Positions 8,782-44,173 of a stretch of 44,285 nucleotides of DNA are shown piece by piece; positions within the stretch are counted from its first letter, which is position 1, and the number at the start of each line of letters is the position of its first letter. The DNA comes from Bacteroidia bacterium (GTDB lineage Bacteria; Bacteroidota; Bacteroidia; Bacteroidales; Prolixibacteraceae): NCBI GenBank assembly GCA_026391655.1, contig JAPLDR010000108.1:12058-56342 (forward strand), written 5' to 3'. Below the pieces are notes generated by a model. It was not told the DNA's origin. It did not search any database and saw only the letters and a list, made by a program, of their open reading frames with translations. A program made the position numbers and the translations under genes.

Positions 8782-8811
8782 TTACCTCTATTTTAGTTCA
8801 TTATGAAACGA

Positions 8812-9559: not shown

Positions 9560-9991
9560 CTATTTATCCATTATACAACGTACAGAAAAACCATCTGCCT
9601 CATTTTCATGGTAACTGCCCAAATCGTTGTAATAATAGCTCGCCTTCCGGTAAAATGCACTAAATGTTGCATACTTGGTAGAACTCCACCAGTAACCTTC
9701 GTTTCCAATGGACTTGAACGAACTATAAATGAAGCACCGGTAGCCACCCGGAAGAGCTGTAAAACCACTGCTGTTGATTGCTCCGTTATTAGGACTTTTC
9801 CAACCTTTTATTGATTTTAGCTTTCCTCCAGCAACAGCTTTACCACCTAAAGGGTCTGTAAGTGTTGTCCATTCTTTATCGCTTGGCAAATGCCAACCCG
9901 AAGGGCATGCTGTTTTTGCTGTTTTCCAGACGTATAAGTATCCGTAAATTTTTACATTATTTGTTGATGTAATACGCCATGAAATAATCAT
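9560..9991 (-). pseudogene. FISUMP copy 1, 5'-truncated
   Basis: An open frame of 143 codons holds only the second half of the Fibrobacter succinogenes major paralogous (FISUMP) domain: GYLYVWKTAKTACPSGWHLP, GFTALPGGYR, GYWWSSTKY and the closing FSVRCIMDK. The signal peptide and the N-terminal WMAENL segment present in sister copies are missing. The first 11 codons are unrelated DNA, so the breakpoint is near 9960. The last 250 bases are nearly identical to the 3' part of the copy at 11613-12266, indicating recent duplication or conversion. Without a signal peptide it is unlikely to work as its sisters do. It is the array member closest to the SGNH gene. Confidence 0.75.
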
Positions 9992-10079
9992 TTCGGTTAT
10001 TGTGAAATATCATACTCATGGCTATTTTATATTACAGAATCTTTCATATTAATATTTAGTTTTACCAATTCATTATGAT

Positions 10080-10745
10080 TTACTTTTTACGGTCTAATTT
10101 TGACCGATCTACTTCTACTCGTTTAATGCAACGAATTGACAACAAGTCAGCCTTCGGAAAGCAGAACCAATAAATACTATCGGAATTGTATGTCAGATTG
10201 CTATACCAGGCGTATTCTGTTTCAGTATCTTTTTCAACTTCACATTCTTTATAAATCCACCAGCGACTCTCATAGCCAATGGACTGGTGTATCAAGATAA
10301 ATCCTTTACCGTGTTCAGCATAGCCACCTGGAAGACCTGCAAAATTGCTTTCATTGGTTGCATTAGTATTGGGGCTTTGCCAATGGCCTGTTCCAGATTC
10401 TTTCATTTTCCCACCTGCCACACTTTCACGTCCCAAATAATCTGCAAGGTTTAGCCATTCTATATCACTCGGCAGGTCCCAACCTGATGGACATGCTATT
10501 TTTGCTGTTTCCCAGTCGTATAAGTACCCGTAAGTTTTTACATTTTTTTGTTCACCACCGTATGCCATGCAGCCACTTTCTGCTTTGTAGGCAAGGTTTT
10601 CTGCCATCCAGATTTGAGTATCTATTTTTACCGTTTTATAAGTTATACCATCTCTCTTATCGGTAAAAGTACCGGTTTCCTGAGCCAATGAACTCAATGC
10701 AATTAAAAAAATCACAATTGTCATTAAAAGCGATTTGTTTTTCAT
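10080..10745 (-). CDS. FISUMP copy 2, divergent secreted paralog
   Basis: This is a 221-residue protein from the ATG at 10745, chosen because the shared signal peptide MKNKSLLMT begins there. It has a signal peptide to about residue 22, then FTDKRDGITYKTVK, WMAENLAYKAESGC and YGYLYDWETAKIACPSGW. The usual GWHLP is GWDLP, and the usual GYWWSST block has become SRWWIYKECEVEK. The C-terminus does not stop after the common SVRC(V/I)K motif but continues with 13 mostly charged residues (VEVDRSKLDRKK). It is the most divergent complete copy. The role is unknown; family members are exported and are thought to be surface or periplasmic proteins. Confidence 0.82.
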   Translation of the reverse strand: MKNKSLLMTIVIFLIALSSLAQETGTFTDKRDGITYKTVKIDTQIWMAENLAYKAESGCMAYGGEQKNVKTYGYLYDWETAKIACPSGWDLPSDIEWLNLADYLGRESVAGGKMKESGTGHWQSPNTNATNESNFAGLPGGYAEHGKGFILIHQSIGYESRWWIYKECEVEKDTETEYAWYSNLTYNSDSIYWFCFPKADLLSIRCIKRVEVDRSKLDRKK

Positions 10746-10822
10746 TTTTTTTAATTCTAAGGTTAATGAATAATTGTTTATTTTTTTCAATGATCGCCAA
10801 CTTTAAGCTTTTGAGGTGCACC

Positions 10823-11527
10823 TTAATCCTTCAAACACCGGACACTAAAGCCGGCAACCTTATAGGAGCTGTTGTAACGGTACATATTCGTATTCTCGTA
10901 GCTCAGGGCACGGTCCCATACGGTTGTTGTATTGGTCTCCGTTGCCGACCACCAGAGGCCGTATGAGCCAATGTTCTTGAACGTTCCATCGTATTCGCGG
11001 TACCCGCCAGGCAAAGCTGTAAAGCCATTGGTATTGGTTGCACCTGTGTTTGGGCTGTTCCAATGTGTTGTTCCTGTTTCTTTCAGTTTACCACCTTCAT
11101 CTGTTCCCCGCCAACTTGTTTTATCTGCATTCGTGTGCGACATGCCAAGCGCCATTTCAAGAGTTTTCCATTCAGCATCTGTTGGCAAATGCCAGCCCGA
11201 AGGACAAAGTTCCCGATTATCATTTATTGCATACCAGTTGTAAAGTGTCCCATAAGTATTCGCGTTACCGGTGCTATTATCGTAACTGCAATATGCACCT
11301 GTGGTTAAATTGCTCCATGAATCCTTATCTGTTATATTTGGTATTTCAGAGCCATCGCGATAATAGGTGGTTTTCAGGTTTTCCGCCATCCATGTTTGAG
11401 TGCCAATTTTTACAGTTTTGTAGGTTTTACCATCTCTCTTATCGGTAAAAGTATCAGTTTTCTGGGCTACCGAACTCATTGCAATAATCAAAATTGCAAC
11501 TGTCATTAATAAAGATTTGTTTTTCAT
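10823..11527 (-). CDS. FISUMP copy 3, long form
   Basis: The 234-residue secreted paralog starts with the shared signal peptide (about 1-22). It then carries a longer first half than most copies: KTTYYRDGSEIPNITDKDSW followed by an Asn/Thr/Tyr-rich segment, then LYNWYAINDNRELCPSGWHL. It also has an insertion, LGMSHTNADKTSWRGTDEGG, before the GGKLKETGTTHWNSPNTGAT segment. It ends with GFTALPGGYREYDG, GLWWSATETN and GFSVRCLKD. The two insertions are typical of the long FISUMP variants found widely in Bacteroidota, so this copy may be closer to an ancestral form. The upstream spacer (11528-11612) carries the array's GTTTCGTTGG-like box. The function is unknown. Confidence 0.88.
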   Translation of the reverse strand: MKNKSLLMTVAILIIAMSSVAQKTDTFTDKRDGKTYKTVKIGTQTWMAENLKTTYYRDGSEIPNITDKDSWSNLTTGAYCSYDNSTGNANTYGTLYNWYAINDNRELCPSGWHLPTDAEWKTLEMALGMSHTNADKTSWRGTDEGGKLKETGTTHWNSPNTGATNTNGFTALPGGYREYDGTFKNIGSYGLWWSATETNTTTVWDRALSYENTNMYRYNSSYKVAGFSVRCLKD

Positions 11528-11612
11528 GTTACTTCATTTAATGATTATTAAAATTATTTATCATAAACCCACATGTTTGGAAGCATTTCGTTGGGAATCA
11601 TACTCAAATAAT

Positions 11613-12266
11613 CTATTTATCCATTATACAACGTACAGAAAAACCATTTGCCTCATTTTCATAGTAACTGCCCAAATCGTTGTAATAATTTCTCGCCTTC
11701 CGGTAAAATGCCTTGAATGTTGCATGCTCGGTAGAACTCCACCAGTAACCTTCGTTTCCAATGGACTTGAACGAACTATAAAGGAAGTACCGGTAGCCAC
11801 CCGGAAGAGCTGTAAAACCGCTTTCATTGGTTGCTACTATATTAGGACTTTTCCAACCTGTTATTGATTTTAGCTTTCCTCCAGCAACATCTTTACCACC
11901 TAAAAAGTCAGTAAGTGTTGTCCATTCGGCATCGCTTGGCACATGCCAGCCCGTGGGGCAAAGTTTACCGGTGTTAACTGCATGCCAATTATACAAAGCT
12001 CCATAAGTATTTTTATATGTTGCTTCATCATTTTCATACCAACAATAACCGGGTTTTGACCATGTTCTGTTATCTGTAACCAATGGTATAGCTACGCCAT
12101 CGGTATATTTGGTTACTTTCAGGTTCTCGTCCATCCAAACTTGTGTGCCTATAGTTACGGTATTGTATACATTGCCATCTATATCTTTCACTGTCTGTGC
12201 CTGTAGTCCGGTTAGCCATAAGAAAAACAAAGCTAATGCGAATAATTTAAATTTTTTGATTTTCAT
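11613..12266 (-). CDS. FISUMP copy 4, subfamily B
   Basis: This 217-residue secreted paralog belongs to a second subfamily shared only with the copy at 16704-17366. It has a different signal peptide (about 1-24, ending LTGLQAQ) and different first-half motifs: TVKDIDGNVYNTVTIGTQVW, KVTKYTDGVAIPLVTD and GYCWYENDEATYKNTYGALY. The second half returns to the common motifs GWHVPSDAEWTTLTDFLGG, GFTALPGGYRYF, GYWWSSTEHATF and GFSVRCIMDK, and is nearly identical in DNA to copy 1, so this gene looks like a mosaic. It is preceded by a perfect Shine-Dalgarno sequence, unusual for this genome. The function is unknown. Confidence 0.88.
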   Translation of the reverse strand: MKIKKFKLFALALFFLWLTGLQAQTVKDIDGNVYNTVTIGTQVWMDENLKVTKYTDGVAIPLVTDNRTWSKPGYCWYENDEATYKNTYGALYNWHAVNTGKLCPTGWHVPSDAEWTTLTDFLGGKDVAGGKLKSITGWKSPNIVATNESGFTALPGGYRYFLYSSFKSIGNEGYWWSSTEHATFKAFYRKARNYYNDLGSYYENEANGFSVRCIMDK

Positions 12267-12271
12267 CTTTT

Positions 12272-12278
12272 ACCTCCT
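12272..12278 (-). promoter_or_regulatory. Strong Shine-Dalgarno site of FISUMP copy 4
   Basis: On the minus strand AGGAGGT lies five bases before the ATG of the copy at 11613-12266. Most starts in the window show only A/T-rich leaders, as is usual in Bacteroidota, so a consensus Shine-Dalgarno sequence is notable. The same site and spacing occur before the copy at 16704-17366. Confidence 0.7.
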
Positions 12279-12363
12279 TTTTTAAAATTATTTGTATTTA
12301 TAAAATACATTAGCTTATAATATTCTTTTCTTTATTTTTTTACTTCACTCGCCAATAGTAAAA

Positions 12364-13230
12364 TCATTCTTCCTTGATCTGGTATTTTTCAGGTAGTTCA
12401 AACAAATTATAAGCGGGTTTGTTTGTACTAATCGAAATAGCAGTATAAGTTGCTATCACATTGTTTTCGTTAACTTCCATTTTAAGAATGGTTCCACCAT
12501 CAATGCCAACCTGTAAAGGCAAAGGAGTTAGAATCCGCCTGTTCTTTGTTTGAAAATCGAATCGTATTTGTTTAAGTATGATATCATTTGTTATCCAAAC
12601 AACAGCAGTAGCATAAGCCTTTACAAATCCTGATTTAACTAATTTAAATTTTTTACATTTAAATCCGCAAATATTTAAAGTTTCAGGAGTTTCTTCCAAT
12701 ATAGCCCGATAATGGGTTGGCATAAGCTTACGCATGTTCTCGTCCTTCATAGCTGCCTCCATATCGGTACATGTTGCTTTAGTTGCTGTTTTTGTCAAAG
12801 AATCGAGAAAGAAAACCTGTTTATTACTAAAATCGGCTATGATATTACCGGCAGTACCTTCTTTTTCAATCATCCTGAATTTATCATTTGAGTAATATAT
12901 ACTAATGGTAACAGGAGAAAAAGTCTTAAAAAGGTCAACACTCTCTTTGTTGCTGCCGGTGCAACTAACATCATAAATTACAGATGCAAAAGGAGCAACC
13001 GCAACAGCTTCGTTTTTTAGAGTATCATTCTCTTTGTTTTTGCTTTTTGAACCTTTGTCGTCAATTGTGATGGCAAATAATACAAATGCTAACAATATTG
13101 CCAGGCCATACACAGTTATAACCTTTTTACGGGTTTTAGCCCCCCGGAATATAACAATGGACGGTTTAATTAAACCCAGTACAATGGCTAATGCAAGCAA
13201 TAAAATAAGAAAGAAAAGAATGTAATTCAT
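12364..13230 (-). CDS. Membrane-anchored protein of unknown function, embedded in the FISUMP array
   Basis: The 288-residue protein has two N-terminal membrane helices (about 3-22 and 38-58) and a long exported or soluble domain (about 75-288). The domain contains SVIYDVSCTGSNKESVDLF, DKFRMIEKEGTAGNIIADF, and paired Cys in NICGFKCKKFKLVKSG, a pattern like the DUF4412/LolA-like envelope proteins of Bacteroidota in which a strand-rich fold holds lipids or metal-dependent ligands. That resemblance is loose and I do not assign the family. It lies between two FISUMP copies in the same direction, 97 bases upstream of the next gene's start, and may be transcribed with the array. It shows no FISUMP similarity. 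Confidence 0.78.
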   Translation of the reverse strand: MNYILFFLILLLALAIVLGLIKPSIVIFRGAKTRKKVITVYGLAILLAFVLFAITIDDKGSKSKNKENDTLKNEAVAVAPFASVIYDVSCTGSNKESVDLFKTFSPVTISIYYSNDKFRMIEKEGTAGNIIADFSNKQVFFLDSLTKTATKATCTDMEAAMKDENMRKLMPTHYRAILEETPETLNICGFKCKKFKLVKSGFVKAYATAVVWITNDIILKQIRFDFQTKNRRILTPLPLQVGIDGGTILKMEVNENNVIATYTAISISTNKPAYNLFELPEKYQIKEE

Positions 13231-13276
13231 AGGAATAATTTTTTATTATTATATTTCAGATAGCTCTTTTATCGAA

Positions 13277-13864
13277 TTAATTCTTAATACAACGCACAGA
13301 ATAACCATTTTTCTTATTGAAGTTGTATCTATCAACAGCGCTACTGCTGTGTTCCAGTCCTATCATTTTTGCATTGTTATCTACTTCTGAAGAAGTCCAC
13401 CAGTAGCCAGAGGCACCCATATTAGCGAATGTCGCATTCAGACGATAGTTGCCACCCGGAAGGGCTTCAAAGCCAATACCTTTAGTTATGTCGGCTTTAG
13501 GAGTATTCCAATTCCTATTTGATTTTAACATGTCACCTGCAGCGTCTTTACCCCCTAAGTAATCTATTAAGATTGTCCATTCTGCATCATTAGGCAAATG
13601 CCAACCTGATGGACAGGATGTTTTTGCTGCTTCCCATCTATATAACCTTCCGTAAGTTATGCAATTGCTGATGCTATCATCATAACACCAGCTATCACTG
13701 GTTTTAAAATTGAGATTTTCAGCCATCCATGTTTGCGTGCCAATTTTAACCGTTTTGTAGGTTTTACCATCTCTCGGATCGGTAAAAGTGCCAGTTTTTT
13801 GGGCTACCGAACTCATTGCAATAATCAAAATTGCAACTGTCATTAATAAAGATTTGTTTTTCAT
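13277..13864 (-). CDS. FISUMP copy 5
   Basis: This 195-residue secreted paralog has the shared signal peptide (MKNKSLLMTVAILIIAMSS) and FTDPRDGKTYKTVKIGTQTW. The middle, NFKTSDSWCYDDSISNCITY, is shared almost word for word with copy 8 at 15225-15860, whereas the second half (DYLGGKDAAGDMLKSNRNWN, ITKGIGFEALPGGNYRLNAT, GYWWTSSEVDNNAKMIGLEH) is its own. It ends NGYSVRCIKN. The DNA upstream (13865-13960) is one of three near-identical leader blocks in the array, the others preceding the copies at 13956 and 18090. The mix of shared and private segments suggests segmental exchange among paralogs. The ligand or partner is unknown. Confidence 0.87.
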   Translation of the reverse strand: MKNKSLLMTVAILIIAMSSVAQKTGTFTDPRDGKTYKTVKIGTQTWMAENLNFKTSDSWCYDDSISNCITYGRLYRWEAAKTSCPSGWHLPNDAEWTILIDYLGGKDAAGDMLKSNRNWNTPKADITKGIGFEALPGGNYRLNATFANMGASGYWWTSSEVDNNAKMIGLEHSSSAVDRYNFNKKNGYSVRCIKN

Positions 13865-13955
13865 AATGCTTAATTTAAAGATTTATAAAACTTGTTTTTC
13901 AAATGAACCAAATGCATGTATGCGTTTCGTTGGGAATTCTGCTCAAACAGACAAT

Positions 13956-14522
13956 TTAATTCTGAACACAACGCACAGAATAACAAAACATTCGTGAAGT
14001 AATACTTGCTCCTGCAGTTTTTTTATAACTATTAACATTTAGGTATAAGCATTCTCCATTCATTAATTGATATGTTGTCCAATAACCAGCTTCATTACCA
14101 AGTCCAACAAAGTTTTTAGAGAAGATGAGATACCAGCCACCATATAATGAGTTAAAACCAGCAGGGTCATCTTGTGTAAAGGCTTCAAAGAGGTCTTTAC
14201 CAGAATTTTTAAGGGTTCCTGTTAATGTACTCGTATCATCCGATGATGGTAAATGCCATCCTGATGGGCAAACATTTTTTGCTACTCCCCATTCGTACAG
14301 GTATCCGTAGGTCTTTACATTGCTTGTGTCGTTGTTGTAGGCCCAACATTCACTTTCTGCTTTGTAGGCAAGGTTTTCCGCCATCCATGTTTGTGTGCCA
14401 ATTTTTACCGTTTTATATGTTTTACCATCTCTTGTATCGGTAAAAGTACTGGTTTTTTGGGCTGCCGAACTTATTGCAATAATCAAAATTGCAATTGTCA
14501 TTAATAAAGATTTGTTTTTCAT
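13956..14522 (-). CDS. FISUMP copy 6, compact and divergent
   Basis: This is a 188-residue protein from the ATG at 14522, chosen because it begins the shared signal peptide; a longer frame to 14609 would put it inside the neighbouring gene's end. The first half is standard (WMAENLAYKAESECWAYNND, KTYGYLYEWGVAKNVCPSGW). After GWHLPSSDD the domain departs from all others: the DYLGG-GGKLK segment is replaced by STLTGTLKNSGKDLFEAF, the ALPGG motif by NSLYGGWYLIFSK, and WWSST by AGYWTTYQLMNGECLY. It closes with the standard CYSVRCVQN. It is a complete gene with a remodelled centre, as expected if the middle of the domain is the variable surface. Confidence 0.84.
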   Translation of the reverse strand: MKNKSLLMTIAILIIAISSAAQKTSTFTDTRDGKTYKTVKIGTQTWMAENLAYKAESECWAYNNDTSNVKTYGYLYEWGVAKNVCPSGWHLPSSDDTSTLTGTLKNSGKDLFEAFTQDDPAGFNSLYGGWYLIFSKNFVGLGNEAGYWTTYQLMNGECLYLNVNSYKKTAGASITSRMFCYSVRCVQN

Positions 14523-14605
14523 TCTTGTCAATTTAAAGATTAATAAAACTTGTTTTTCAAATGAACCAAATGCATGTATGCGTTTCGTTGGGGATATCAA
14601 AATTG

Positions 14606-15208
14606 TCAATTATTTTTAACACAACGCACAGAAAGCCCGTTACTTTTATCAAAGCCTTCGAAGTCTCGGTATAAACTGCTGGTATTGTGGCCAATGTACC
14701 AGTACCTTGCCTTGAATGTACTCCACTCGGTAAAACTCCACCAGTAGCCATAGCTGTCAATCCGGTTGAACGATCCGGTGATGAAACGGTAGCCACCCGG
14801 AAGGGCTGTAAAACCTGTTTCATTGGTTGCACCAATATTTGGGCTATCCCAGCCCGTAGTTGATTTTAATTTACTTCCGGCAACATCTCTACCGCCTAAA
14901 TAGTCTGTTAATGTTGACCATTCTGCATCGCCTGGCAGATGCCAGCCTGCGGGACATACATCTTTTGCTGTTTTCCAATCGTACAGATACCCGTATTTTG
15001 CCAAATTAGTTGTATCATCATAGTAAACCCAACAGCCACTTTTTGCTTTGTAAGCAAGGTTTTCAGCCATCCATGTTTGCTTACCAATTTTTATTGTTTT
15101 ATAAGTTTTACCATTTCTTGAATCGACAAAAGAACGGGTTTTTTGAGCTACCGAACTCATTGCAATAATTATAATTGCAATTGTAATTAATAAAGATTTG
15201 CTTTCCAT
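14606..15208 (-). CDS. FISUMP copy 7
   Basis: This 200-residue secreted paralog has a slightly altered signal peptide (MESKSLLITIAIIIIAMSS), with Glu-Ser instead of Lys-Asn. The domain is canonical: FVDSRNGKTYKTIKIGKQTW, GCWVYYDDTTNLAKYGYLYD, CPAGWHLPGDAEWSTLTDYL, GFTALPGGYRFITGS, GYWWSFTEWSTFKARYW and GLSVRCVKNN. It has no leader of its own: the upstream copy (15225-15860) stops 16 bases before this ATG, so it is almost certainly the second gene of that transcript. The usual upstream GTTTCGTTGG box is absent here, which supports operon expression. The biological role is unknown. Confidence 0.88.
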   Translation of the reverse strand: MESKSLLITIAIIIIAMSSVAQKTRSFVDSRNGKTYKTIKIGKQTWMAENLAYKAKSGCWVYYDDTTNLAKYGYLYDWKTAKDVCPAGWHLPGDAEWSTLTDYLGGRDVAGSKLKSTTGWDSPNIGATNETGFTALPGGYRFITGSFNRIDSYGYWWSFTEWSTFKARYWYIGHNTSSLYRDFEGFDKSNGLSVRCVKNN

Positions 15209-15224
15209 AATTTACTTAAATATT

Positions 15225-15860
15225 CTATTTATCCATTATACAACGCACAGAAAAGCCAGATAACTTATAGTTGCTATCTGTTTTACTACTGTTGAGATTA
15301 TTGTACAGGCTAAAGGTCACAGCCTTAAGAACATCATACCAGCTAGAACTCCACCAGGTGCCTGTGTTATTGATCCAAAAGAATTTATCTTCATAGTTAC
15401 GATAGCCACCCGGAAGAGCCGAGAATCCACTGCTGTTGCGTGCACCTGCATTTGGACGCGCCCAATGTATTGTGCCAGCTTCTTTTAATTTGACGCCCGC
15501 ATAATCTACGCCACCTAAGTAATCAGTTAAAGTTGTCCATTCTTCGGTCTCCGGCAAATGCCAGCCGACCGGGCATGCTTTTTTTGCCACATCCCAGGTA
15601 TATAGCCTTCCATAAGTTGCACAATTGCTGATGCTATCATCATAGCACCAGCTATCGCTGGTTTTAAAATTGAGATTTTCTGCCATCCATGTTTGTGTTC
15701 CTATTACAACTGTTTTGTAGGTTTTACCATCTCTCGGATCGGTAAAAGTATCAGTTTTTTGGGCTGCTCTCGGATCGGTAAAAGTACCGGTTCTCTGAGC
15801 TAAAGAACTCATTGCAATTATCAAAATTGCAACTGTCATTAATAAAGATTTGTTTTTCAT
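15225..15860 (-). CDS. FISUMP copy 8, with an in-frame 36-bp duplication
   Basis: This 211-residue secreted paralog starts at the ATG at 15860, where the shared signal peptide begins. Just after the signal-peptide region the segment TGTFTDPRAAQ is followed at once by KTDTFTDPRDGKTYK: a 36-base unit is tandemly repeated (repeat starts at about 15731 and 15767), adding 12 residues in frame. The rest is standard: NFKTSDSWCYDDSISNC (like copy 5), YTWDVAKKACPVGWHLPETE, GFSALPGGYRNYEDKF, GTWWSSSWYDVLK and GFSVRCIMDK. The duplication keeps the protein intact, so this copy is probably functional. It is cotranscribed with the copy at 14606. Confidence 0.87.
   Translation of the reverse strand: MKNKSLLMTVAILIIAMSSLAQRTGTFTDPRAAQKTDTFTDPRDGKTYKTVVIGTQTWMAENLNFKTSDSWCYDDSISNCATYGRLYTWDVAKKACPVGWHLPETEEWTTLTDYLGGVDYAGVKLKEAGTIHWARPNAGARNSSGFSALPGGYRNYEDKFFWINNTGTWWSSSWYDVLKAVTFSLYNNLNSSKTDSNYKLSGFSVRCIMDK
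15731..15802 (-). repeat. 36-bp tandem duplication inside FISUMP copy 8
   Basis: The word CTCTCGGATCGGTAAAAGTA occurs at 15731 and again at 15767, giving two adjacent 36-base units with a few base differences. Sister copies have a single unit. The length is divisible by three, so the reading frame is kept. Confidence 0.8.
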
Positions 15861-15964
15861 TCTTGTCAATTTTAAGGCTAATAAATATTTGTTTTGTTTC
15901 ATTTAAAGCAAACGACTGTTAGCGTTTCGTTGGAATCTTAAAGTCAGTCATCCGTCAAATCATC

Positions 15965-16546
15965 TTAATCCATCAAACACCGGACACTATAGTTGTTATT
16001 CTCGGTGATGGTGCCCCTATAGATGGATGCAGCATTGTAGAGCAGGTTCCTGTAGTAAGCGCTTGGGTAAATATAAGATGAAGAGTACTCAGTAGAACTC
16101 CACCAGTTACCGTCATTCTCAATTTTGTCGAATGTTCCAAAGCGACCGTAGCCACCAGGGAGTCCCGAAAAACCGCTTTTGTTGGTTGCTTTGGTATTTG
16201 GACTATTCCAACTTTTTTTTGATTTTAATTTGCCACCTGCAATATCTATACCGCCCAGATAATCTGTTAAAGTTGTCCATTCTGAATCGGTGGGTAAATG
16301 CCAACCGCTTGGGCAGACTTTTAATGCTGCATAATAAGTATATAAACGTCCATATATGGCGCAATTACTACTGTCATTATTGTAACAAAAGCCATAAATG
16401 CTTGTCCTATAATTTAGGTTTTCCGCCATCCATGTTTGCGTGCCAATTTTTACCGTTTTGTAGGTTTTACCATCTCTCGGGTCAGTAAAAGTACCAGTTT
16501 CCTGTGCTAACGAACTCATTGCAATAATCAAAATTGCAATTGTCAT
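15965..16546 (-). CDS. FISUMP copy 9, start displaced by a frameshifting tandem duplication
   Basis: The domain is intact (193 residues from the ATG at 16546): FTDPRDGKTYKTVKIGTQTW, YRTSIYGFCYNNDSSNCAIY, VCPSGWHLPTDSEWTTLTDY, GFSGLPGGYGRFGT, GNWWSSTEYSSSYIYP and YSVRCLMD. The normal start at 16599 no longer reads through, because a perfect 32-base tandem duplication shifts the frame and gives a 17-codon peptide ending in TAA. That TAA overlaps the next ATG as TAATG, an arrangement that often allows ribosomes to restart. The restarted protein has a shortened signal peptide lacking the positively charged N-terminus (MTIAILIIAMSSLAQ), so export may be weaker. It may be a leaky or switched-off copy. 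Confidence 0.8.
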   Translation of the reverse strand: MTIAILIIAMSSLAQETGTFTDPRDGKTYKTVKIGTQTWMAENLNYRTSIYGFCYNNDSSNCAIYGRLYTYYAALKVCPSGWHLPTDSEWTTLTDYLGGIDIAGGKLKSKKSWNSPNTKATNKSGFSGLPGGYGRFGTFDKIENDGNWWSSTEYSSSYIYPSAYYRNLLYNAASIYRGTITENNNYSVRCLMD

Positions 16547-16589
16547 TAATAAAGATTAATCAAAATTGCAATTGTCATTAATAAAGATT
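16526..16589 (-). repeat. Perfect 32-bp tandem duplication at the start of FISUMP copy 9
   Basis: Two adjacent identical 32-base units lie at 16526-16557 and 16558-16589. Other copies have one unit. Since 32 is not divisible by three, the original start codon at 16597-16599 is put out of frame; precise loss of one unit would restore the full signal peptide. Confidence 0.9.
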
Positions 16590-16703
16590 TGTTTTTCATG
16601 ATACTGGGTTTCTTAGATTAATAATATTTGTTTTTACTTATGAATCCAAAAGCAACATCTTGTTTATGATTCGTTGGAATCACCTGTATTCTATGTTATC
16701 CAA

Positions 16704-17366
16704 TTAATCCTTAATACATCGCACAGAAAACCCATCTTTCTTAGGCTTGTAGTTTCTGACTAAACTACTGTTATCTTTGTCCATGCAACGGAAGTAAGCA
16801 TAATCATCATTGCTCTGGGTTGAACTCCACCAGTTACCATAGTTCCCAATGTTGCTGAACATTATATAGTAGTCACGGTAACCACCTGGAAGGGCTGTAA
16901 AACCTTCACTGTTTGTTGCTCCGGTATTAGGGTTATTCCAATACTTCTTTCCTGTTCCTTTTAATTTACCGCCGGCAACATATTTACCACCTAAAAGGTC
17001 TGTAAGAGTTGTCCATTCTGCATCGGTGGATACATGCCAGCCGATAGGACAAAGTTTACCCGTGCTAACTACATGCCAATTATACAAAGCTCCATAAATA
17101 TTTTTATATGTTGCTTCATCATTTTCATACCAACAATAACCGGGTGTTGATAAATTTGACCATGTAGTGTTATCAGTAACCAATGGTATAGCTGCACCAT
17201 CGGTATATTTGGTTACTTTCAGGTTCCCGGCCATCCAAACTTGTGTGCCTATAGTAACGGTATTGTATAAATTGCCATCTATATCTTTCACTGTCTGTGC
17301 CTGTAGTCCGGTTAGACATAAGAAAAACAAAGTTAGGGTGAATAATTTATTGTTTATTGTTTTCAT
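16704..17366 (-). CDS. FISUMP copy 10, subfamily B
   Basis: This 220-residue secreted paralog is the close relative of the copy at 11613. It has the signal peptide FTLTLFFLCLTGLQAQ, TVKDIDGNLYNTVTIGTQVW, WMAGNLKVTKYTDGAAIPLV and GYCWYENDEATYKNIYGALY. Asn replaces Glu in the usual WMAEN-like block (WMAGN). The second half differs from copy 4 (DLLGGKYVAGGKLKGTGKKY, GFTALPGGYRDYYIM, GNWWSSTQSNDDYAYFRCMD) and ends GFSVRCIKD. So the two subfamily B genes share a 5' half and leader but carry different 3' halves. The start lies 23 bases after the stop of the upstream copy, with a perfect AGGAGGT between, suggesting cotranscription with independent strong initiation. Confidence 0.88.
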   Translation of the reverse strand: MKTINNKLFTLTLFFLCLTGLQAQTVKDIDGNLYNTVTIGTQVWMAGNLKVTKYTDGAAIPLVTDNTTWSNLSTPGYCWYENDEATYKNIYGALYNWHVVSTGKLCPIGWHVSTDAEWTTLTDLLGGKYVAGGKLKGTGKKYWNNPNTGATNSEGFTALPGGYRDYYIMFSNIGNYGNWWSSTQSNDDYAYFRCMDKDNSSLVRNYKPKKDGFSVRCIKD

Positions 17367-17371
17367 TTTTT

Positions 17372-17378
17372 ACCTCCT
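17372..17378 (-). promoter_or_regulatory. Strong Shine-Dalgarno site of FISUMP copy 10
   Basis: AGGAGGT on the minus strand, five bases before the ATG at 17366, is identical in sequence and spacing to the site of copy 4. It sits in the short gap after the stop codon of the upstream copy at 17390. Confidence 0.7.
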
Positions 17379-17389
17379 TTTTTTAAAAT

Positions 17390-18001
17390 CTATTTATCCT
17401 TAACACAACGTACAGATAACCCTATATCCATTTGAAAATCGCTGGTGAATACAGTGTTAATTTTTCCAAGCTTCAGATATTTGAATTGTTTAGCAGCGTA
17501 TGCAGCAGTTGAACTCCACCAATAACCTTCGATTCCAATAGCGTCAAATGAGACCTTGCCGTCTTCGTCTAAGTATAAAAATCCCCCTGGAAGAGCTGTA
17601 AAACCACTGCTATTTGTTGGGTTTTCATCTGGTTTTTTCCAGGTTGATTTCGCTTTTAGTTTGCCAGCTGCAACATTTTCACCGCCCAAATAATCAATTA
17701 GTGTTGCCCATTCTGCAAACTCCGGCAAATGCCAACCGGATGGACATGAATTCTTGGCAGTATACCAGTCGTATAAATATCCGTAAGTTGCCAAATTACT
17801 CTTATCTCTGTCGTAAGGGCAATAATAACCATCTTCTGCCTTGTAGGCAAGGTTTTCCGCCATCCATGTTTGTGTGCCAATTTTTACCGTTTTGTAGGTT
17901 TTACCATCTCTCTTATCTTTAAACGTACCGGTTTCCTGAGCTGCCAAACTCATTGCAATTATTAAAACTGCAATTGTCATTAATACAGATTGGTTTTTCA
18001 T
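17390..18001 (-). CDS. FISUMP copy 11
   Basis: This 203-residue secreted paralog has signal peptide MKNQSVLMTIAVLIIAMSLA and then FKDKRDGKTYKTVKIGTQTW. FKDKRDGK instead of FTD(P/K)RDGK places it in a group with the copies at 18090, 20293 and 20984. The variable part reads YKAEDGYYCPYDRDKSNLAT, NSCPSGWHLPEFAEWATLID, GFTALPGGFLYLDEDGKVSF, GYWWSSTAAYAAKQFKYLK and ends IGLSVRCVKDK. The segment between ALPGG and WWSST is longer and more acidic than in sisters. It heads a probable two-gene transcript with the subfamily B copy at 16704. The function is unknown. Confidence 0.87.
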   Translation of the reverse strand: MKNQSVLMTIAVLIIAMSLAAQETGTFKDKRDGKTYKTVKIGTQTWMAENLAYKAEDGYYCPYDRDKSNLATYGYLYDWYTAKNSCPSGWHLPEFAEWATLIDYLGGENVAAGKLKAKSTWKKPDENPTNSSGFTALPGGFLYLDEDGKVSFDAIGIEGYWWSSTAAYAAKQFKYLKLGKINTVFTSDFQMDIGLSVRCVKDK

Positions 18002-18089
18002 ATTGCTTAATTAAAAGATTAATTCAAAATTAGTTTTACTGAATATGGCTACTACTTAATAGCGTTCTTTGGAATTTGAAAACAGTAAA

Positions 18090-18719
18090 TCAATCTTTTA
18101 AACACCTGACAGAATAGCCCATTGCTTTACCACCTGTGAACCCAGCCCTTTTGGAGAAGGAGCCATCACGGTAGTCCAGTGACCAGTGATAGGCACTCAT
18201 CGAAAGAAAGGCTTCGGTAGAACTCCACCAACCGCCGATACTACCAATATCATAGAATGAATATTTATCATTTTTGAAGCTGCACCAGCCACCAGGAAGG
18301 CCCGTAAACCCGCTTTCATTGGATGCTATATGCTTAGGGCTATTAGGGCTCTGCCAATGTTTATTACCTGTTTCCTTAAGTTTACCTCCGGCAATAGTAT
18401 CGCCTCCTAAATAGTTACTTAATGTCGACCATTCAGCATCGCCTGGTAAATGCCATCCTTTAGGACATGATTTTTTTGCTGCTTCCCAGTCGTATAAGTA
18501 TCCGTAGGTTGCTACATTGCCCTCATTGTTGCTGTAGGCCCAGCAGCCACTTTCTGCCTTGTAAGCAAGATTTTCAGCCATCCATGTTTGCGTACCGATT
18601 TTTACCGTCTTGTATTTTTTGCCATCTCTCTTATCTTTAAACGTACCGGTTTCCTGAGCTGCCAAACTCATTGCAATAATCAAAATTGCAATTGTCATTA
18701 ATAAAGATTTGTTTTTCAT
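18090..18719 (-). CDS. FISUMP copy 12
   Basis: This 209-residue secreted paralog has the shared signal peptide and FKDKRDGKKYKTVKIGTQTW. It has GCWAYSNNEGNVATYGYLYD, KSCPKGWHLPGDAEWSTLSN, then an insertion SPKHIASNESGFTGLPGGW in which three to four extra residues precede the ALPGG-type motif, then GGWWSSTEAFLSMSAYHWSL and a longer final loop (KRAGFTGGKAMGYSVRCLKD). Its leader DNA (18720-18800) is almost identical to the leaders of copies 5 and 6, while the coding centre is not, another sign of mosaic evolution. The start ATG at 18719 is preceded only by A/T-rich sequence. The role is unknown. Confidence 0.87.
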   Translation of the reverse strand: MKNKSLLMTIAILIIAMSLAAQETGTFKDKRDGKKYKTVKIGTQTWMAENLAYKAESGCWAYSNNEGNVATYGYLYDWEAAKKSCPKGWHLPGDAEWSTLSNYLGGDTIAGGKLKETGNKHWQSPNSPKHIASNESGFTGLPGGWCSFKNDKYSFYDIGSIGGWWSSTEAFLSMSAYHWSLDYRDGSFSKRAGFTGGKAMGYSVRCLKD

Positions 18720-18801
18720 AATGCTTAATCTAAAGATTAATAAAACTTGTTTTCAAATGAACCAAATGCATGTATGCGTTTCGTTGGGAATATCCAAATT
18801 G

Positions 18802-19390
18802 TCAATTATTCTTAACACAGCGCACAGAAAACCCATCGGCCTCACTGCTGTAGTATCTGTCCACATTGCTGTCACTGTCCACGCTCCTGTACCAGGCAGT
18901 GCTCGTATCGTACTCGGTAGAACTCCACCAGTAGCCATCGTCCCCAACGTCGCGGAATAGTCCTTTGGGGCTACGGTAACCACCCGGAAGGGCTGTAAAA
19001 CCTGTTTCATTTGTCGCTCCTGTATTAGGGCTTGTCCAAGTTGAAGTTGATTTTAACTTTCCGCCTGCAACATCTTCACCGCCTAAGTAAGTTGTGAGGG
19101 TTGACCATTCGGCATCAGTGGGCAGATGCCAACCTGAAGGACATACAGTTTTTGCTGTTTCCCAATTGTATAGATACCCGTATTTTGCTACATTAATTAC
19201 ATCATCTTTGTATGCCCAACATCCAGTACTTGCTTTGTAGGCAAGGTTTTCGGCCATCCATGTTTGCGTACCGATTTTTACCGTTTTGTATTTTTTGCTA
19301 TCTCTCTTATCTTTAAACGGTTTCCTGAGCTGCCAAACTCATTACAATAATCAAAATTGCAATTGTCATTAATAAAGATTTGTTTTTCAT
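18802..19390 (-). pseudogene. FISUMP copy 13, frameshifted by a 5-bp deletion
   Basis: From the normal ATG at 19390 the frame reads the shared signal peptide (with Val in IIVMSLAAQ) and stops after about 25 codons at ETV-stop. Comparison with sister copies (AAACGTACCGGTTTCC on the plus strand) shows only AAACGGTTTCC here, a five-base deletion near 19319. Downstream the domain is perfect in another frame from WMAENLAYKASTGCWAYKDD through CPSGWHLPTDAEWSTLTTYL, GFTALPGGYRSPKG, GYWWSSTEYDTSTAWYR and GFSVRCVKNN (to 18802). The clean remainder shows the lesion is recent, or that the gene can be switched. Alternatively the gap is a sequencing or assembly error. As written, no secreted protein would be made. 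Confidence 0.82.
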
Positions 19391-19489
19391 ATTACGGAGT
19401 TTCTTAATTAATTATATTTGTTCTGATTTATAAATACAAAAACAATATCTTGTTTGTGTTTCGTTGGGAATTCTATTCAAAAAGACAAT

Positions 19490-20074
19490 TTAATCTTTCA
19501 AACACCGGACACTATAGCCGAAAAGCTTTTTGTAGAAGTATCTTCCCACAGATGCTTTATCGTAGGACAAGTAACGGGCCCAAGTGGATACTACATCTCC
19601 TACCGAATTGAACTCCGAAGCCGACCACCAGTAACCGAGATACCCAATGTCGTAAAACGACTCACTGTTATAACGTTGACCACCAGGCAATGCCATAAAG
19701 TTGCTGCTGTTGTCAGCGCCAGTATTAGGACTTTTCCAGCCTTTAGTTGATTTTAATTTTCCTCCTGCAAGCAATATACCACCTAAAAAATCTGTTAGTG
19801 TTGTCCATTCAGCATCGCTTGGTAAATGCCAGCTTGATGGACATACATTTTTTGCTGTTTCCCAGTTGTACAGGTAACCGTAGGTTGTTACATTGTTTTG
19901 ATCGTCCTTGTATGCCCAACATCCAGTACTTGCTTTGTAGGCAAGGTTTTCCGCCATCCATGTTTGCGTGCCAATTTTTACCGTTTTGTAGGTTTTACCA
20001 TCTCTCGGGTCAGTAAAAGTACCAGTTTCCTGTGCTAACGAACTCATTGCAATAATCAAAATTGCAATTGTCAT
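19490..20074 (-). CDS. FISUMP copy 14, original start codon deleted
   Basis: The domain is complete: FTDPRDGKTYKTVKIGTQTW, GCWAYKDDQNNVTTYGYLYN, CPSSWHLPSDAEWTTLTDFL (Ser for Gly in SGWHLP), NFMALPGGQRYNSESFYDIG, GYWWSASEFNSVG and GYSVRCLKD. The common MKNKSLL start is gone: the leader word AATCTTTA runs straight into TTAATGACA. The same word occurs twice 29 bases apart in sister copies (leader and codons 5-7), so a deletion between these short repeats explains the loss. The first usable ATG is 20074, giving a 194-residue protein whose signal peptide lacks the basic N-terminus. An imperfect palindrome lies just upstream (20117-20244). Expression and export are doubtful. Confidence 0.78.
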   Translation of the reverse strand: MTIAILIIAMSSLAQETGTFTDPRDGKTYKTVKIGTQTWMAENLAYKASTGCWAYKDDQNNVTTYGYLYNWETAKNVCPSSWHLPSDAEWTTLTDFLGGILLAGGKLKSTKGWKSPNTGADNSSNFMALPGGQRYNSESFYDIGYLGYWWSASEFNSVGDVVSTWARYLSYDKASVGRYFYKKLFGYSVRCLKD

Positions 20075-20116
20075 TAATAAAGATTAATAAATATTTGTCG
20101 AGTTTTTACCAATGAA

Positions 20117-20244
20117 CGCTAACGATTTGGCGCTTGCTTTTCGGTGGCGATGTTAACCCACTGCATTTTCCACAAAACGCTTCCGATTAAAATTATTACT
20201 TTCCTGTCTTACGAGCCACAGTCGCGCCACTGAAAGCTAACGCC
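20117..20244. repeat. Imperfect palindrome (intergenic repeat family), copy at 20.1 kb
   Basis: Arms GCTTTTCGGTGGCGA (20136-20150) and TCGCGCCACTGAAAGC (20222-20237) pair imperfectly, and both outer ends carry GCTAACG (20118-20124 and 20236-20242). The left half is about 75 percent alike to 22192-22252. It separates FISUMP copies 14 and 15. It resembles the elements at 41.7, 43.3 and 44.1 kb in size and style. Confidence 0.6.
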
Positions 20245-20292
20245 TGTTACCGTTTCGTTGGAATCTTGAATTCAGTTTATTCGCCAAATAGT

Positions 20293-20895
20293 TTATTTAT
20301 CCCTAACGCAATGAACTGACAACCCTTCCTCCTTACCAATTTCTTCCCCATCTATACTATTAATACTGTAGTGAAGGAAGCGGTCAAATGCATCGGAATC
20401 TCCGTATTCTCCAGAACTCCACCAGTATCCGCCTTTTTCAAAAGATACGAATTCCCCGTTAATATTGCGGTGACCACCAGGTAAGCCTGCAAACCCACTT
20501 TCATTGGTTGCACCAGTATTAGGCCTTTTCCAAGAAGTGTTGCCTGTTTCTTTTAGTTTACCTCCTGCTATGCTGTCACCTCCTAAATAGTCTGTTAATG
20601 TTGTCCAATCTTCATCTGTCGGTAAATGCCATCCTGAAGGACATTCTTTATTTGCTGTTTTCCAATTGTATAAATAGCCATATTTTTTTGCATTGCTCTC
20701 GTTGTTATCATAGGCCCAGCAGCCACTTTCTGCCTTGTAGGCAAGGTTTTCAGCCATCCATGTTTGCGTACCGATTTTTACCGTTTTGTATTTTTTGCCA
20801 TCTCTCTTATCTTTAAAAGTACCGGTTTCCTGAGCTGCCAAACTCATTGCAACAATCAAAATTGCAACTGTCATTAATAAATATTTGAATTTCAT
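20293..20895 (-). CDS. FISUMP copy 15
   Basis: This 200-residue secreted paralog has signal peptide MKFKYLLMTVAILIVAMSLA and then FKDKRDGKKYKTVKIGTQTW, with GCWAYDNNESNAKKYGYLYN, KECPSGWHLPTDEDWTTLTD and GDSIAGGKLKETGNTSWKRP. GFAGLPGGHRNINGEF and GYWWSSGEYGDSDAFDRFLH follow, and the end is GLSVHCVRDK, where the nearly invariant SVRC is SVHC. The region between WWSS and the end is acidic (SIDGEEIGKEEG). The leader has the AATCTTTA word and a degenerate GTTTCGTTGG box further upstream. It is a complete gene. The function is not known beyond membership of the exported FISUMP family. Confidence 0.87.
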   Translation of the reverse strand: MKFKYLLMTVAILIVAMSLAAQETGTFKDKRDGKKYKTVKIGTQTWMAENLAYKAESGCWAYDNNESNAKKYGYLYNWKTANKECPSGWHLPTDEDWTTLTDYLGGDSIAGGKLKETGNTSWKRPNTGATNESGFAGLPGGHRNINGEFVSFEKGGYWWSSGEYGDSDAFDRFLHYSINSIDGEEIGKEEGLSVHCVRDK

Positions 20896-20983
20896 AACAC
20901 ATAATTTAAAGATTAATAATATTTGTTTTTGCCAATTAGGCTGACATCTATTAGAATTTCATTTGGAATTTTACTCAAATAAT

Positions 20984-21601
20984 CTATTTATCTTTAATAC
21001 AACGCACAGAATATCCCTGAAATAACAACAACGTATTGAGATCATGCCTGGATCTGTATAAACCGCTGTAATTATAGAATATGTGCTGGAACCAGGCACT
21101 GTTTATATCATACTCGGTAGAACTCCACCAGCCACCGAAGTTCCCGATGTTGGTGAGTGCTTTCTTGTCGTGATAGGTGCCACCCGGAAGAGCCGTAAAA
21201 CCGCTACTATTAGTTGCTTCGGTATTAGGATTATTCCAATGCGCTGTGCCAGTTTCCTTCATTTTTCCTCCAGCAATTTTTTCACCTCCTAAATAGTCGC
21301 ACAATGTTGACCATTCTTCATTTGTCGGTAAATGCCATCCTTCAGGACATGCTATTTTTGCTGTTTTCCAATCGTATAAGTATCCATAGGTTGCCACATT
21401 GTCCTCATTGTCGCTGTATGCCCAGCAGCCACTTTCTGCCTTGTAGGCAAGGTTTTCAGCCATCCATGTTTGCGTACCGATTTTTACCGTTTTGTATTTT
21501 TTGCCATCTCTATTATCTTTAAAAGTACCGGTTTCCTGAGCTGCCAAACTCATTGCAACAATCAAAATTGCAACTGTCATTAATAAAGATTTGTTAATCA
21601 T
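20984..21601 (-). CDS. FISUMP copy 16
   Basis: This 205-residue secreted paralog starts at the ATG at 21601; a TTG three codons upstream is less likely. The signal peptide is MINKSLLMTVAILIVAMSLA, followed by FKDNRDGKKYKTVKIGTQTW, GCWAYSDNEDNVATYGYLYD, IACPEGWHLPTNEEWSTLCD (an extra Cys), GFTALPGGTYHDKKA, GGWWSSTEYDINSAWFQHIF and an extended tail RHDLNTLLLFQGYSVRCIKDK. It is the last intact copy at the upstream end of the array. The membrane protein gene at 21612 stops 10 bases before its start, so the two are probably one transcript, with the membrane protein translated first. Confidence 0.87.
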   Translation of the reverse strand: MINKSLLMTVAILIVAMSLAAQETGTFKDNRDGKKYKTVKIGTQTWMAENLAYKAESGCWAYSDNEDNVATYGYLYDWKTAKIACPEGWHLPTNEEWSTLCDYLGGEKIAGGKMKETGTAHWNNPNTEATNSSGFTALPGGTYHDKKALTNIGNFGGWWSSTEYDINSAWFQHIFYNYSGLYRSRHDLNTLLLFQGYSVRCIKDK

Positions 21602-21611
21602 TTTTCTCAAT

Positions 21612-22172
21612 TTATAAGGTTAATAAATAGCTATTCTTTTCTATCGTTTCTTTAAGCAAATTCGTCAGGTAAACAGCTTCTTCATCGTCGACTGAAAGTC
21701 CAAATGAGTAGGTTTTTAAACCATAGTCAAATTTGATTTTACCAGATCCAAGTCCCCAAAATGCCCATCTGCTTCCACCGGACTTCTGATCATCGATTTT
21801 TTCAAAGCGAAAATTTTTAGTCTTAGCAAGTGCCATACTCTTTTTGAGTCCAATTCCAAAGATTGATTTCTCAAACTTCATTGTATTCGAGTCTATTTTT
21901 AAAATCTCTTTCCCGAAATATCCCCATAACAGGAAGAACATTAATCCAAGTCCGCAGGAAGCCCAACCGATTATCCAGGAGGTCATGAGATCATCAATTA
22001 TTACATTTCCACTGCTCTCAAAACTAAAGGTTGAAATGGCACTTTTAAATCCAAAATACCAACCAACAAGCCATACAGTCCCAAAGAGTAAAATGGCCCA
22101 ATCTTTCTTTGAAGGAATCGATATTGTTAATCGTCCCAATGAGTTGTCAATTTTCGCTTTTCCGTTATTCAT
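21612..22172 (-). CDS. Two-helix membrane protein of unknown function, upstream of the FISUMP array
   Basis: The 186-residue protein has a short polar N-terminus, two hydrophobic helices (about 26-46 and 64-86, Trp/Phe/Gly-rich) and a C-terminal cytoplasmic-type domain of about 100 residues. The C-terminal part (MKFEKSIFGIGLKKSMALAK, KNFRFEKIDD, RWAFWGLGSGKIKFDYGLKT, FGLSVDDEEAVYLTNLLKE) resembles the PH-like domains that follow two membrane helices in many small bacterial membrane proteins. I do not recognise a named family. It is in the same direction as the array and 10 bases before FISUMP copy 16. Its only visible link to the paralogs is position. Confidence 0.75.
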   Translation of the reverse strand: MNNGKAKIDNSLGRLTISIPSKKDWAILLFGTVWLVGWYFGFKSAISTFSFESSGNVIIDDLMTSWIIGWASCGLGLMFFLLWGYFGKEILKIDSNTMKFEKSIFGIGLKKSMALAKTKNFRFEKIDDQKSGGSRWAFWGLGSGKIKFDYGLKTYSFGLSVDDEEAVYLTNLLKETIEKNSYLLTL

Positions 22173-22191
22173 TGTCGTTTTCTAATTATGA

Positions 22192-22252
22192 CTAACGTTC
22201 ACGGGCTTGATTTTCAGTGGCAATGCTAATCCGTTGCATTTTCCACGAAGCC
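22192..22252. repeat. Half-copy of intergenic repeat
   Basis: This 61-base block starts CTAACG and contains TTGCATTTTCCACGAAGCC. It aligns with about 75 percent identity to 20119-20180 (CTGCATTTTCCACAAAACGC at its end). The partner arm of the palindrome is not seen here because a FISUMP relic begins at 22263. Confidence 0.55.
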
Positions 22253-22262
22253 AAATAGCCAA

Positions 22263-22608
22263 TTAATTCTTAACACAACGCACAGATAAACTATAGGCCT
22301 TTACGCAGATGAGTTTGGGCACCTACCAGCCGGGGGGACATATAAACAGTGAATCTACAACGGTATACCAGTTGTATAATGCACCATAAAAGCCTGGGAT
22401 TGTAACTGAATCATTTTCATACCAAAATCTTGCACCTGTTGTCTGATTGTAACATCTCAGTAATCGAAACAGGTTACATTTATTTGCTTATTCGAAGAGT
22501 AAACACGACCAGCTATGTTTATTCCATTATTCCAGCCTTGAACGTATCATAAGGAAGACATGAAAGAGTTGACATACAGCAGATTAATGTTTGGTTCGTG
22601 TTTTTCAT
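22263..22608 (-). pseudogene. FISUMP copy 17, degraded relic
   Basis: Three fragments of a FISUMP gene can be read on the minus strand in different frames. There is an ATG at 22608 followed by MKNTNQTLICCMSTLSCLP; a middle piece with FWYENDSVTIPGFYGALYNW, like subfamily B; and CPPGW leading, after an internal loss, into the closing SLSVRCVKN and TAA at 22263-22265. Stops and shifts separate them, and the ALPGG and WWSST blocks are gone, leaving about 115 codons of a domain that normally needs about 200. It marks the upstream edge of the array and shows that the cluster also loses members. Confidence 0.65.
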
Positions 22609-44013: not shown

Positions 44014-44039
44014 CTGAGATTCGGTCTGTTATTATGGCG

Positions 44040-44168
44040 CACAACGTTCCGCAGCTACACGCAGGCGGGGTTTTTTATCACTAAACTATTTACGTATCAA
44101 TATTTTACTTTTTCTTCTTTCCTATCCTGCGAACACCGAAACCCCGCTTGCGGGTAGGTGCTGTTGTG
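44040..44168. repeat. Imperfect palindrome, element C
   Basis: CACAAC at 44040-44045 pairs with GTTGTG at 44163-44168, and TACACGCAGGCGGGGTTT (44056-44073) with AAACCCCGCTTGCGGGTA (44139-44156), apart from two mismatches. The left arm has an extra seven-base bulge (GTTCCGC) and the right arm three extra bases. The centre is 65 bases. It separates the acetyltransferase gene and the antitoxin-like gene. Confidence 0.75.
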
Positions 44169-44173
44169 GTTAG

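Follow-up and report, generated by a model that had tools for sequence, protein, structure and literature searches.

We analysed a 44,285-nt stretch (hereafter the window) of contig JAPLDR010000108.1 from a Prolixibacteraceae bacterium of the order Bacteroidales (assembly GCA_026391655.1, contig positions 12,058 to 56,342), which carries an array of genes for the FISUMP domain (Fib_succ_major; PF09603, TIGR02145) together with foldback sites of the attC type, that is, resembling the recombination sites of integron cassettes. A family search detected PF09603 at 17 places on this contig, between 9560 and 22451, and every copy lies on the minus strand. Sixteen of them are open reading frames (ORFs) within 9560-21610 and the 17th is a remnant at 22317-22451, the remnant being the one match that scores below the curated cut-off of 33.9 bits. 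Fourteen copies, named here by their lower coordinate (Table 1), are intact, with a signal-like hydrophobic stretch at the N-terminus (read by eye) and the full domain, and three are defective. These counts, the single orientation, the motifs shared by the copies and the signal-like stretch all agree with the initial annotation of this DNA. The copies are not strictly consecutive as had been stated there, since two non-FISUMP ORFs (12364-13230 and 21612-22172) interrupt the row; neither had a Pfam match at E 0.001, a PADLOC match when a defence function was looked for, or a homologue among the ORFs of 65 fetched loci at E 0.001.

The similarity within the array is far beyond chance, and its copies are full members of the family: copy 10823 matched with E 5.6e-56 and 190.9 bits for PF09603, and the two copies tested against TIGR02145 exceeded its cut-off with 143.2 (10823) and 149.7 bits. 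The whole genome has 28 PF09603 matches, 11 of which lie on other contigs, and 81 of 119 genomes of the order have a FISUMP match at E 1e-15. To our knowledge, FISUMP proteins have no established role.

attC-type sites and cassette arrays

The gap between copies 20293 and 19490 (gaps were read on the coding strand) contains a 155-nt palindrome. A BLASTN search of 295 genomes from the order recovered this palindrome in 8, its own included, with up to 85% identity in another family. Eleven elements, aligned over 26 stem pairs, gave a covariance model (R1); the window site at 20117-20252 is one of them, so that its 135-bit score is that of a member of the build set. In the build set, which is not fitted to the model, 86.5% of the cells pair and 8 of the 26 pairs are changed on both sides (17 cells), compared with at most 3 pairs and 6 cells in slid controls. 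At E 0.01, R1 detected sites in at least 69 of the 295 genomes, again counting its own. Among 70 distinct matches, 25 of the 26 stem pairs show compensatory change, with 293 double-changed cells versus at most 73 in slid controls, in an alignment that is fitted to R1, which favours covariation, and that includes five opposite-strand echoes and six build-set elements. The sole invariant pair is the C-G of the AAC/GTT core. Of the full RYYYAAC / GTTRRRY consensus, TAAC/GTTA is well kept, the outer bases vary and helix 1 is paired in 75.8% of the cells; the window site reads CGGTAAC / GTTAGCG. The sites are, in other words, imperfect palindromes that keep their structure and their AAC/GTT core while their sequence varies, as is expected of attC sites.

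The full window holds two intact sites, one in the array and one at 44039-44169, near the contig end. The half site after the remnant (22192-22249) reaches just 7.1 bits (E 4) in the full covariance model, and other array gaps, as judged by eye, retain the left boundary CCAACGAAACG, with either a short hairpin or nothing behind it. At gathering scores, no Rfam family matched the window; in four array loci Rfam gave no family at the sites and DUF805 RNA outside them alone. A further attC-type site of the same genome lies at L088:5584-5716 (G000:C28; 50.3 bits), beside a masked run of N. At 43393-44285 the contig ends inside a cassette-like stretch, in which the tail of an HTH_3-like ORF (44174-44284; Pfam match below cut-off) is followed 4 nt on by the attC-type site and then by a GNAT-like gene.

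In 24 stretches with two or more R1 sites (68 sites), all sites lie on a single strand in each stretch, by a hand count from which echoes and repeated contig stretches were dropped and for which some stretches had been chosen because they showed two sites. In 11 of these loci, with 40 sites, 71 of 73 flanking ORFs are co-oriented with the site, which begins a median of 23 nt from the stop codon. Gaps between sites, with co-oriented ORFs inside, measure 0.6-4.6 kb (one of 8.7 kb). Sites on the same strand, co-oriented ORFs and short stop-to-site distances are how integron cassette arrays are organised. When named genomes were scanned with an exact pattern, 38 stretches were returned; wherever a title gives a group it is Bacteroidota, and three contigs are labelled only uncultured bacterium.

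Integron integrase (IntI, TIGR02249) exceeded the cut-off in 5 of the 295 genomes. No R1 match up to E 1 was found in these five stretches; one of the genomes (G007) has an R1 site on another contig, and one of the stretches (L091) carries other attC-like repeats, which means that R1 does not cover every attC. The best IntI-like protein of the genome studied here scores 203.1 bits against a cut-off of 265 and leaves model columns 179-235 unmatched. As a lead to an alternative recombinase, we note an N-terminally extended tyrosine recombinase of 466 aa on contig C133 (918-2318), near a contig end and followed by a PIN-like gene just below cut-off (both in L009; G000:C133:352-2318); as an IntI this protein was rejected, being below cut-off and without the extra region. 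Relatives of it occur in four fetched array loci: in L089 (68% identical and apparently frame-broken) one gene upstream of the first site, in L098 just over 1 kb upstream, in L123 about 5.6 kb away, and in L086 as a divergent fragment. None occurs in 34 control loci (115 kb), a number too small for significance, and no R1 site was found near the recombinase itself in this genome.

FISUMP cassettes in other genomes and mosaic copies in the window

A FISUMP profile built from the window was run over the attC-type loci scanned and matched in L114, L115, L120 and L041, and in L126 and L134, which both overlap L041. In L114 (Bacteroidetes bacterium isolate Cfx2-01, of another family) the FISUMP gene (3943-4542) stands alone between two sites of a five-site array, that is, as a single-gene cassette. 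The start of this cassette, GTTAGCGTTCATTGGTAAAA, is the start of window unit 19490, and its end, CCAACGAAACGCTAAC, is the end of window unit 15965, from which unit 20293 differs by one base. In L041 a site comes after the FISUMP stop codon. In L115 the site precedes FISUMP, whose gene is cut off by the contig edge, and in L120 FISUMP and the site are separated by another gene. A DUF805 RNA (RF03081, 74.4 bits) was also seen at L114:3610-3678, in the leader of the next cassette after that of FISUMP.

Allowing one mismatch, the end motif CCAACGAAACG has 8 matches in the window versus 0.59 in shuffles; the array accounts for seven of them, of which five are exact and two differ at one position, and the eighth is at 38837. 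Within 110 nt of the stop codon, the motif was found in 9 of the 16 ORF copies at up to 3 substitutions and in 7 of the 16 at up to one. At this stricter threshold it was absent from all five non-array FISUMP flanks that were read in the genome (of 11 genes), and R1 gave no site in these five loci at E < 0.6, which sets these family members apart from those of the array. Among seven FISUMP genes checked in other genomes, the exact motif is present in L114, L041 and L158, and no motif entry was obtained for L115, L120, L157 and L160. The 16-mer CCAACGAAACGCTAAC was chosen after it had been seen in the window and in three other loci (L114, L041 and L158). Among 393 genomes of the order, nine contain it, at 12 places in total, eight of which are new; its reversed control occurs at none. 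At seven of the 12 an R1 match begins at an offset of exactly 9 nt within the motif, and five of the seven matches are weak (17-20 bits, E 0.003-0.016).

The region from LPGG to SVRC is the most variable part of the copies, with a mean entropy of 2.24 bits compared with 0.96 and 1.13 in the two preceding stretches. Synonymous divergence (pS) is near saturation in both parts (medians 0.65 and 0.68 over 120 pairs), so that most of the divergence is old, the exception being the 3′ parts of 9560 and 11613 (pS 0.03); non-synonymous divergence (pN) climbs from 0.28 to 0.44 toward the variable part. Copy 11613 is a mosaic: over 50-nt intervals its 5′ part is 78-100% like 16704 and its 3′ part and untranslated region (UTR) are 84-100% like 9560, with the switch near GWHLP. 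Among 14 copies, with 9560 and the outlier 13956 left out, distances in the 5′ third are uncorrelated with those in the middle (r -0.01) or the variable part (r -0.29), a result that a weak signal in the 5′ third could also produce, and distances in the middle and the variable part are correlated (r 0.63, P < 0.001; 0.83 with 13956).

We also built a tree of 61 proteins, in which the starred forks require two or more label changes for the window copies; this excludes a single origin of these copies at that level. Copies 11613 and 16704 group with FISUMP proteins of other genomes and one other of this genome, and a starred fork excludes the remaining window copies from the group. A structure model of copy 18090 was fairly confident, with a pLDDT of 80.7 and a pTM of 0.79, and a PDB sequence search gave no match up to E 1. 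L114 and L204 also match Lcl_C, below the Lcl_C cut-off. FISUMP and DUF1566 are described as related domains of the target proteins of diversity-generating retroelements (DGRs) in a passage of PMC4159848. The proteins would therefore be expected to be exported binders with exchangeable specificity. The earlier proposal of a diversifying secreted repertoire is partly supported: diversification fits the entropy peak between LPGG and SVRC, the mosaic copies and the occurrence of the domain in DGR targets, the N-terminal stretch suggests secretion, and ligand binding is probable for such proteins.

A possible link to diversity-generating retroelements

The array copies share with DGR target proteins (Lcl_C/DUF1566 and FISUMP, with a C-type lectin fold) their domain and a variable C-terminal face, and the cassette 3′ end is common to the window and two DGR units, L202 and L203. 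These units are complete DGRs, with bAvd (PF22296), a DGR-type reverse transcriptase, a template and a variable region (VR), and their template-to-variable differences fall on A in 21 of 23 and 23 of 28 cases, respectively. At the eight new places, CCAACGAAACGCTAAC is preceded by FISUMP in L198 (153 nt away) and L201, by an Lcl_C gene in L190 and L191 (92 and 39 nt away) and by a DGR reverse transcriptase ending 3 and 6 nt before it in L196 and L199; another gene precedes it in L195, and a contig edge in L193. L200 is the L158 place, whose preceding FISUMP gene was read from L158. A further DGR, L156 (22 of 22 differences at A), lies in a genome that also carries FISUMP cassettes. FISUMP cassettes were rejected as targets of its template, because mismatches also fall on bases other than A in the copies compared, seven of them foreign and 16 from the window; none of these 23 derives from it. 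The combination of reverse transcriptase, template and A-specific substitutions was found in L156, L202 and L203, in contrast to the genome studied here, in which no DGR enzyme or A-specific variation was detected. One genome, G012, has four DGR-type reverse transcriptase loci (L150, L152, L154, L155) as well as at least 11 attC-type sites and FISUMP cassettes.

The DiGReF authors speculated in 2012, in a passage of PMC3521204, that DGRs may use the integron system; beyond that speculation, the open-access PMC listings searched, together with passages of PMC4891356 and PMC3521204, showed no paper linking DGRs to integron cassettes. Tentatively, and with rather more doubt than confidence, we propose that DGRs of Bacteroidota might travel in integron-type cassettes, DGR units and lone FISUMP or Lcl_C targets having the cassette 3′ end and attC-type site in common. 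The mover could be a recombinase other than a classical IntI, perhaps the N-terminally extended tyrosine recombinase; variants might be made at a DGR and then shed, captured and stockpiled, and the window array could consist of frozen variants further shuffled by recombination.

How the array may have arisen

In our interpretation the array is a store of FISUMP gene cassettes that has both expanded and decayed, for secreted C-type-lectin-like binders diversified by recombination; we assign this reading a probability of roughly 0.6. Cassette ancestry rests on several lines (the intact and half sites, the ends of the cassettes, a cassette of this kind in another family, the mosaic copy and the more than one origin of the copies), and it is the cassette origin, not diversification as such, that is new here. 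Each unit would originally have been a gene followed by an attC-type site, a type of site that integron-type recombinases excise and insert in a folded, single-stranded form, and more than one FISUMP lineage would have been gathered at the locus. The copies may then have grown in number and exchanged segments through ordinary homologous recombination, with most switches at the conserved GWHLP block; a given 5′ part (leader, signal stretch and scaffold) could in this way be joined to differing 3′ parts (variable face, SVRC end and 3′ UTR). Most attC sites would since have been reduced to short hairpins, as expected for an unstable palindrome no longer in use. In the presumably exported proteins, loops between LPGG and SVRC may set ligand specificity.

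Several observations weigh against this interpretation. The 13-kb array contains a single intact site, and all matches of the genome to IntI are under the cut-off. By itself the window foldback is not significant (z -1.70; 14 of 200 shuffles fold equally well), so that the case rests on comparison, and the build set shows no more types of pair than shuffles do (215/500). Both exact cassette ends occur together in no single window unit; 7 of the 16 ORF copies are without the end motif even at 3 substitutions, two of these seven (18090 and 20984) showing looser variants by eye; and one of the five non-array flanks has a match with 2 substitutions, 1 nt after the stop codon. The start motif, with 6 occurrences at 2 mismatches and 4.88 expected, is not above chance and was rejected as independent evidence. 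In the protein tree the window copies cluster more than shuffled labels do (5 label changes versus a shuffled mean of 10.0), and many forks of the tree are weak, with 13 of 57 inner branches starred and the bootstrap not settled. The four top Foldseek matches of the structure model are C-type-lectin-like venom proteins at E 0.13 or worse, which is not significant. Finally, a single capture of a FISUMP gene with an attC site, followed by tandem duplication, would explain much.

In this last scenario, ordinary tandem duplication and gene conversion would have acted on one captured FISUMP gene whose attC-type site was copied or lost along with it, with no assembly of cassettes. Repeat units with conserved 5′ ends, the 92% identical 300-nt segment common to 9560 and 11613, the lone intact site, the lack of an integrase, the clustering in the tree and the frequency of multi-copy FISUMP in the order all agree with it. 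It accounts less well for the grouping of 11613 and 16704 with foreign FISUMP proteins under a starred fork, for unit ends that reappear at the two ends of a real cassette from another family, and for the two unrelated ORFs inside the array, one of which comes right after an attC right half; we regard it as unlikely, while counting it as the strongest competitor of the cassette store. The palindromes could also be foldbacks of another sort, i.e. terminators, repetitive extragenic palindrome (REP) or miniature inverted-repeat transposable element (MITE) sequences, RNA elements, or the hairpin downstream of the VR, which a passage of PMC3521204 describes as required in a subset of DGRs. FISUMP is reported in DGR targets (PMC4159848), and many of the genomes with sites have no recognised integrase. 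A conserved AAC/GTT core together with covarying arms is nevertheless what attC sites show, the orientation is fixed and the gaps hold co-oriented ORFs, and the Rfam searches gave no family at the sites; moreover, the sites follow many kinds of genes, and two of the 16-mer places follow DGR reverse transcriptases, not VRs. Such an identity is improbable.

Rewriting of the copies in place by a DGR active now is more improbable still. In 10823, 14606, 15965, 18802 and 20984, C makes up 55-69% of the C/T-ending codons in the variable part versus 31-40% before it (22 of 32 versus 18 of 53 in copy 10823), and the L114 and L041 cassette copies behave alike; 18802 and 20984 resemble the L203 template and the presumed L150 template, and more of the template mismatches are at A, e.g. 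7 of 18 versus 4 of 27 (no significance test). This codon pattern is, however, absent or reversed elsewhere (6 of 30 versus 22 of 51 in 13956; also in the L115 and L120 cassette copies), and the differences are old, with pS near saturation in both parts, and not A-specific. The DGR motif, as given in a passage of PMC3521204, was found in none of the three reverse transcriptases of this genome, which is 96.35% complete. With no DGR-type reverse transcriptase found and synonymous sites near saturation, an active DGR in this genome was rejected.

Cassette arrays in which one lineage-specific type of attC is repeated, often with one ORF per cassette, are characteristic of the chromosomal integrons of Vibrio. 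The cassette arrays of the order share these features, one site type being repeated within the lineage, and differ in that no IntI was seen beside the sites. They are also close to clusters of attC sites lacking integron integrases (CALIN), with attC-type sites, co-oriented ORFs between them in relatives and no integrase found in the genome. The definition of a CALIN, in the relevant passages of PMC9024848 and PMC9668308, calls for at least two attC within 4 kb; such spacing occurs in relatives such as L087 and L114, whereas the window array has one intact and one half site. One complete integron is named among Bacteroidetes proper, that of Salinibacter ruber, in the IntegronFinder 2 passage concerned (PMC9024848). 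If FISUMP genes spread as attC cassettes and share a cassette end with DGR units, a mechanism for bursts in copy number would follow, and a function as exchangeable, variable binding proteins would be directly testable; attC-type cassette arrays would also prove frequent in an order in which complete integrons are rarely reported. A concrete origin thus appears to be on offer for a protein family of no established function.

Table 1. Positions in the window of the FISUMP copies, the ORFs among them, and the attC-type sites and cassette-end motifs
Feature	Position	Strand	Remarks
FISUMP copy, N-terminally truncated	9560..9991	-	3′ ~300 nt 92% identical to 3′ end of 11613
FISUMP copy	10080..10790	-	
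FISUMP copy	10823..11527	-	top family score of array
FISUMP copy, chimera	11613..12266	-	resembles 16704 in its 5′ part and 9560 in its 3′ part plus 3′ UTR
Non-FISUMP ORF within array	12364..13230	-	weak sub-cut-off DUF4412 match
FISUMP copy	13277..13864	-	
FISUMP copy	13956..14609	-	likely start is internal ATG near 14546
FISUMP copy	14606..15208	-	
FISUMP copy	15225..15902	-	
FISUMP copy	15965..16546	-	sole window unit with exact CCAACGAAACGCTAAC 3′ end, then short attC left arm
FISUMP copy	16704..17366	-	second lineage (with 11613)
FISUMP copy	17390..18001	-	
FISUMP copy	18090..18719	-	used for structure model
FISUMP copy, defective	18802..19257	-	TAA after signal stretch, ORF restarts at MAENL
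FISUMP copy	19490..20074	-	directly downstream of intact attC-type site; 20-nt cassette start in leader
FISUMP copy	20293..20895	-	directly upstream of intact attC-type site
FISUMP copy	20984..21610	-	
Non-FISUMP ORF	21612..22172	-	attC right half before it (cassette-like position)
FISUMP remnant	22317..22451	-	in-frame TAG stop
Intact attC-type foldback	20117..20252	-	135 bits, E 4e-34; palindrome outer arms reach 20109-20263
attC-type right half	22192..22249	-	78% identical to intact site, E 4.5e-6
Second intact attC-type site	44039..44169	-	54.7 bits, E 1.8e-12; same foldback, other sequence than 20117-20252
Cassette 3′-end motif CCAACGAAACG	20251..20261	-	
CCAACGAAACG, other exact copies	13923-13933, 14581-14591, 15923-15933, 18777-18787	-	
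CCAACGAAACG, one mismatch	11584-11594, 19457-19467	-	
Cassette 5′-start motif GTTCATTGGTAAAA	20104..20117	-	
GTTCATTGGTAAAA, near copies	13895-13908, 14553-14566, 18749-18762	-	

The array is flanked by a GDSL lipase-type gene (8803-9513) and an alpha-L-fucosidase gene (PF01120, 22796-24229), which suggests that it may belong to a glycan-degradation neighbourhood. In other genomes, a three-gene unit at L042:680-4637 is bounded by attC-type sites; its gene 1 looks kinase-like and has weak PADLOC PD-T4-6 matches, and genes 2 and 3 appear by eye to be VWA- and PP2C-like. In L206 (G089:C113), a stretch with an Lcl_C gene ahead of the cassette-end motif, a repeat occurs at six places, 84-96% identical and 1.6-3.4 kb apart, and possibly represents another attC-type family.

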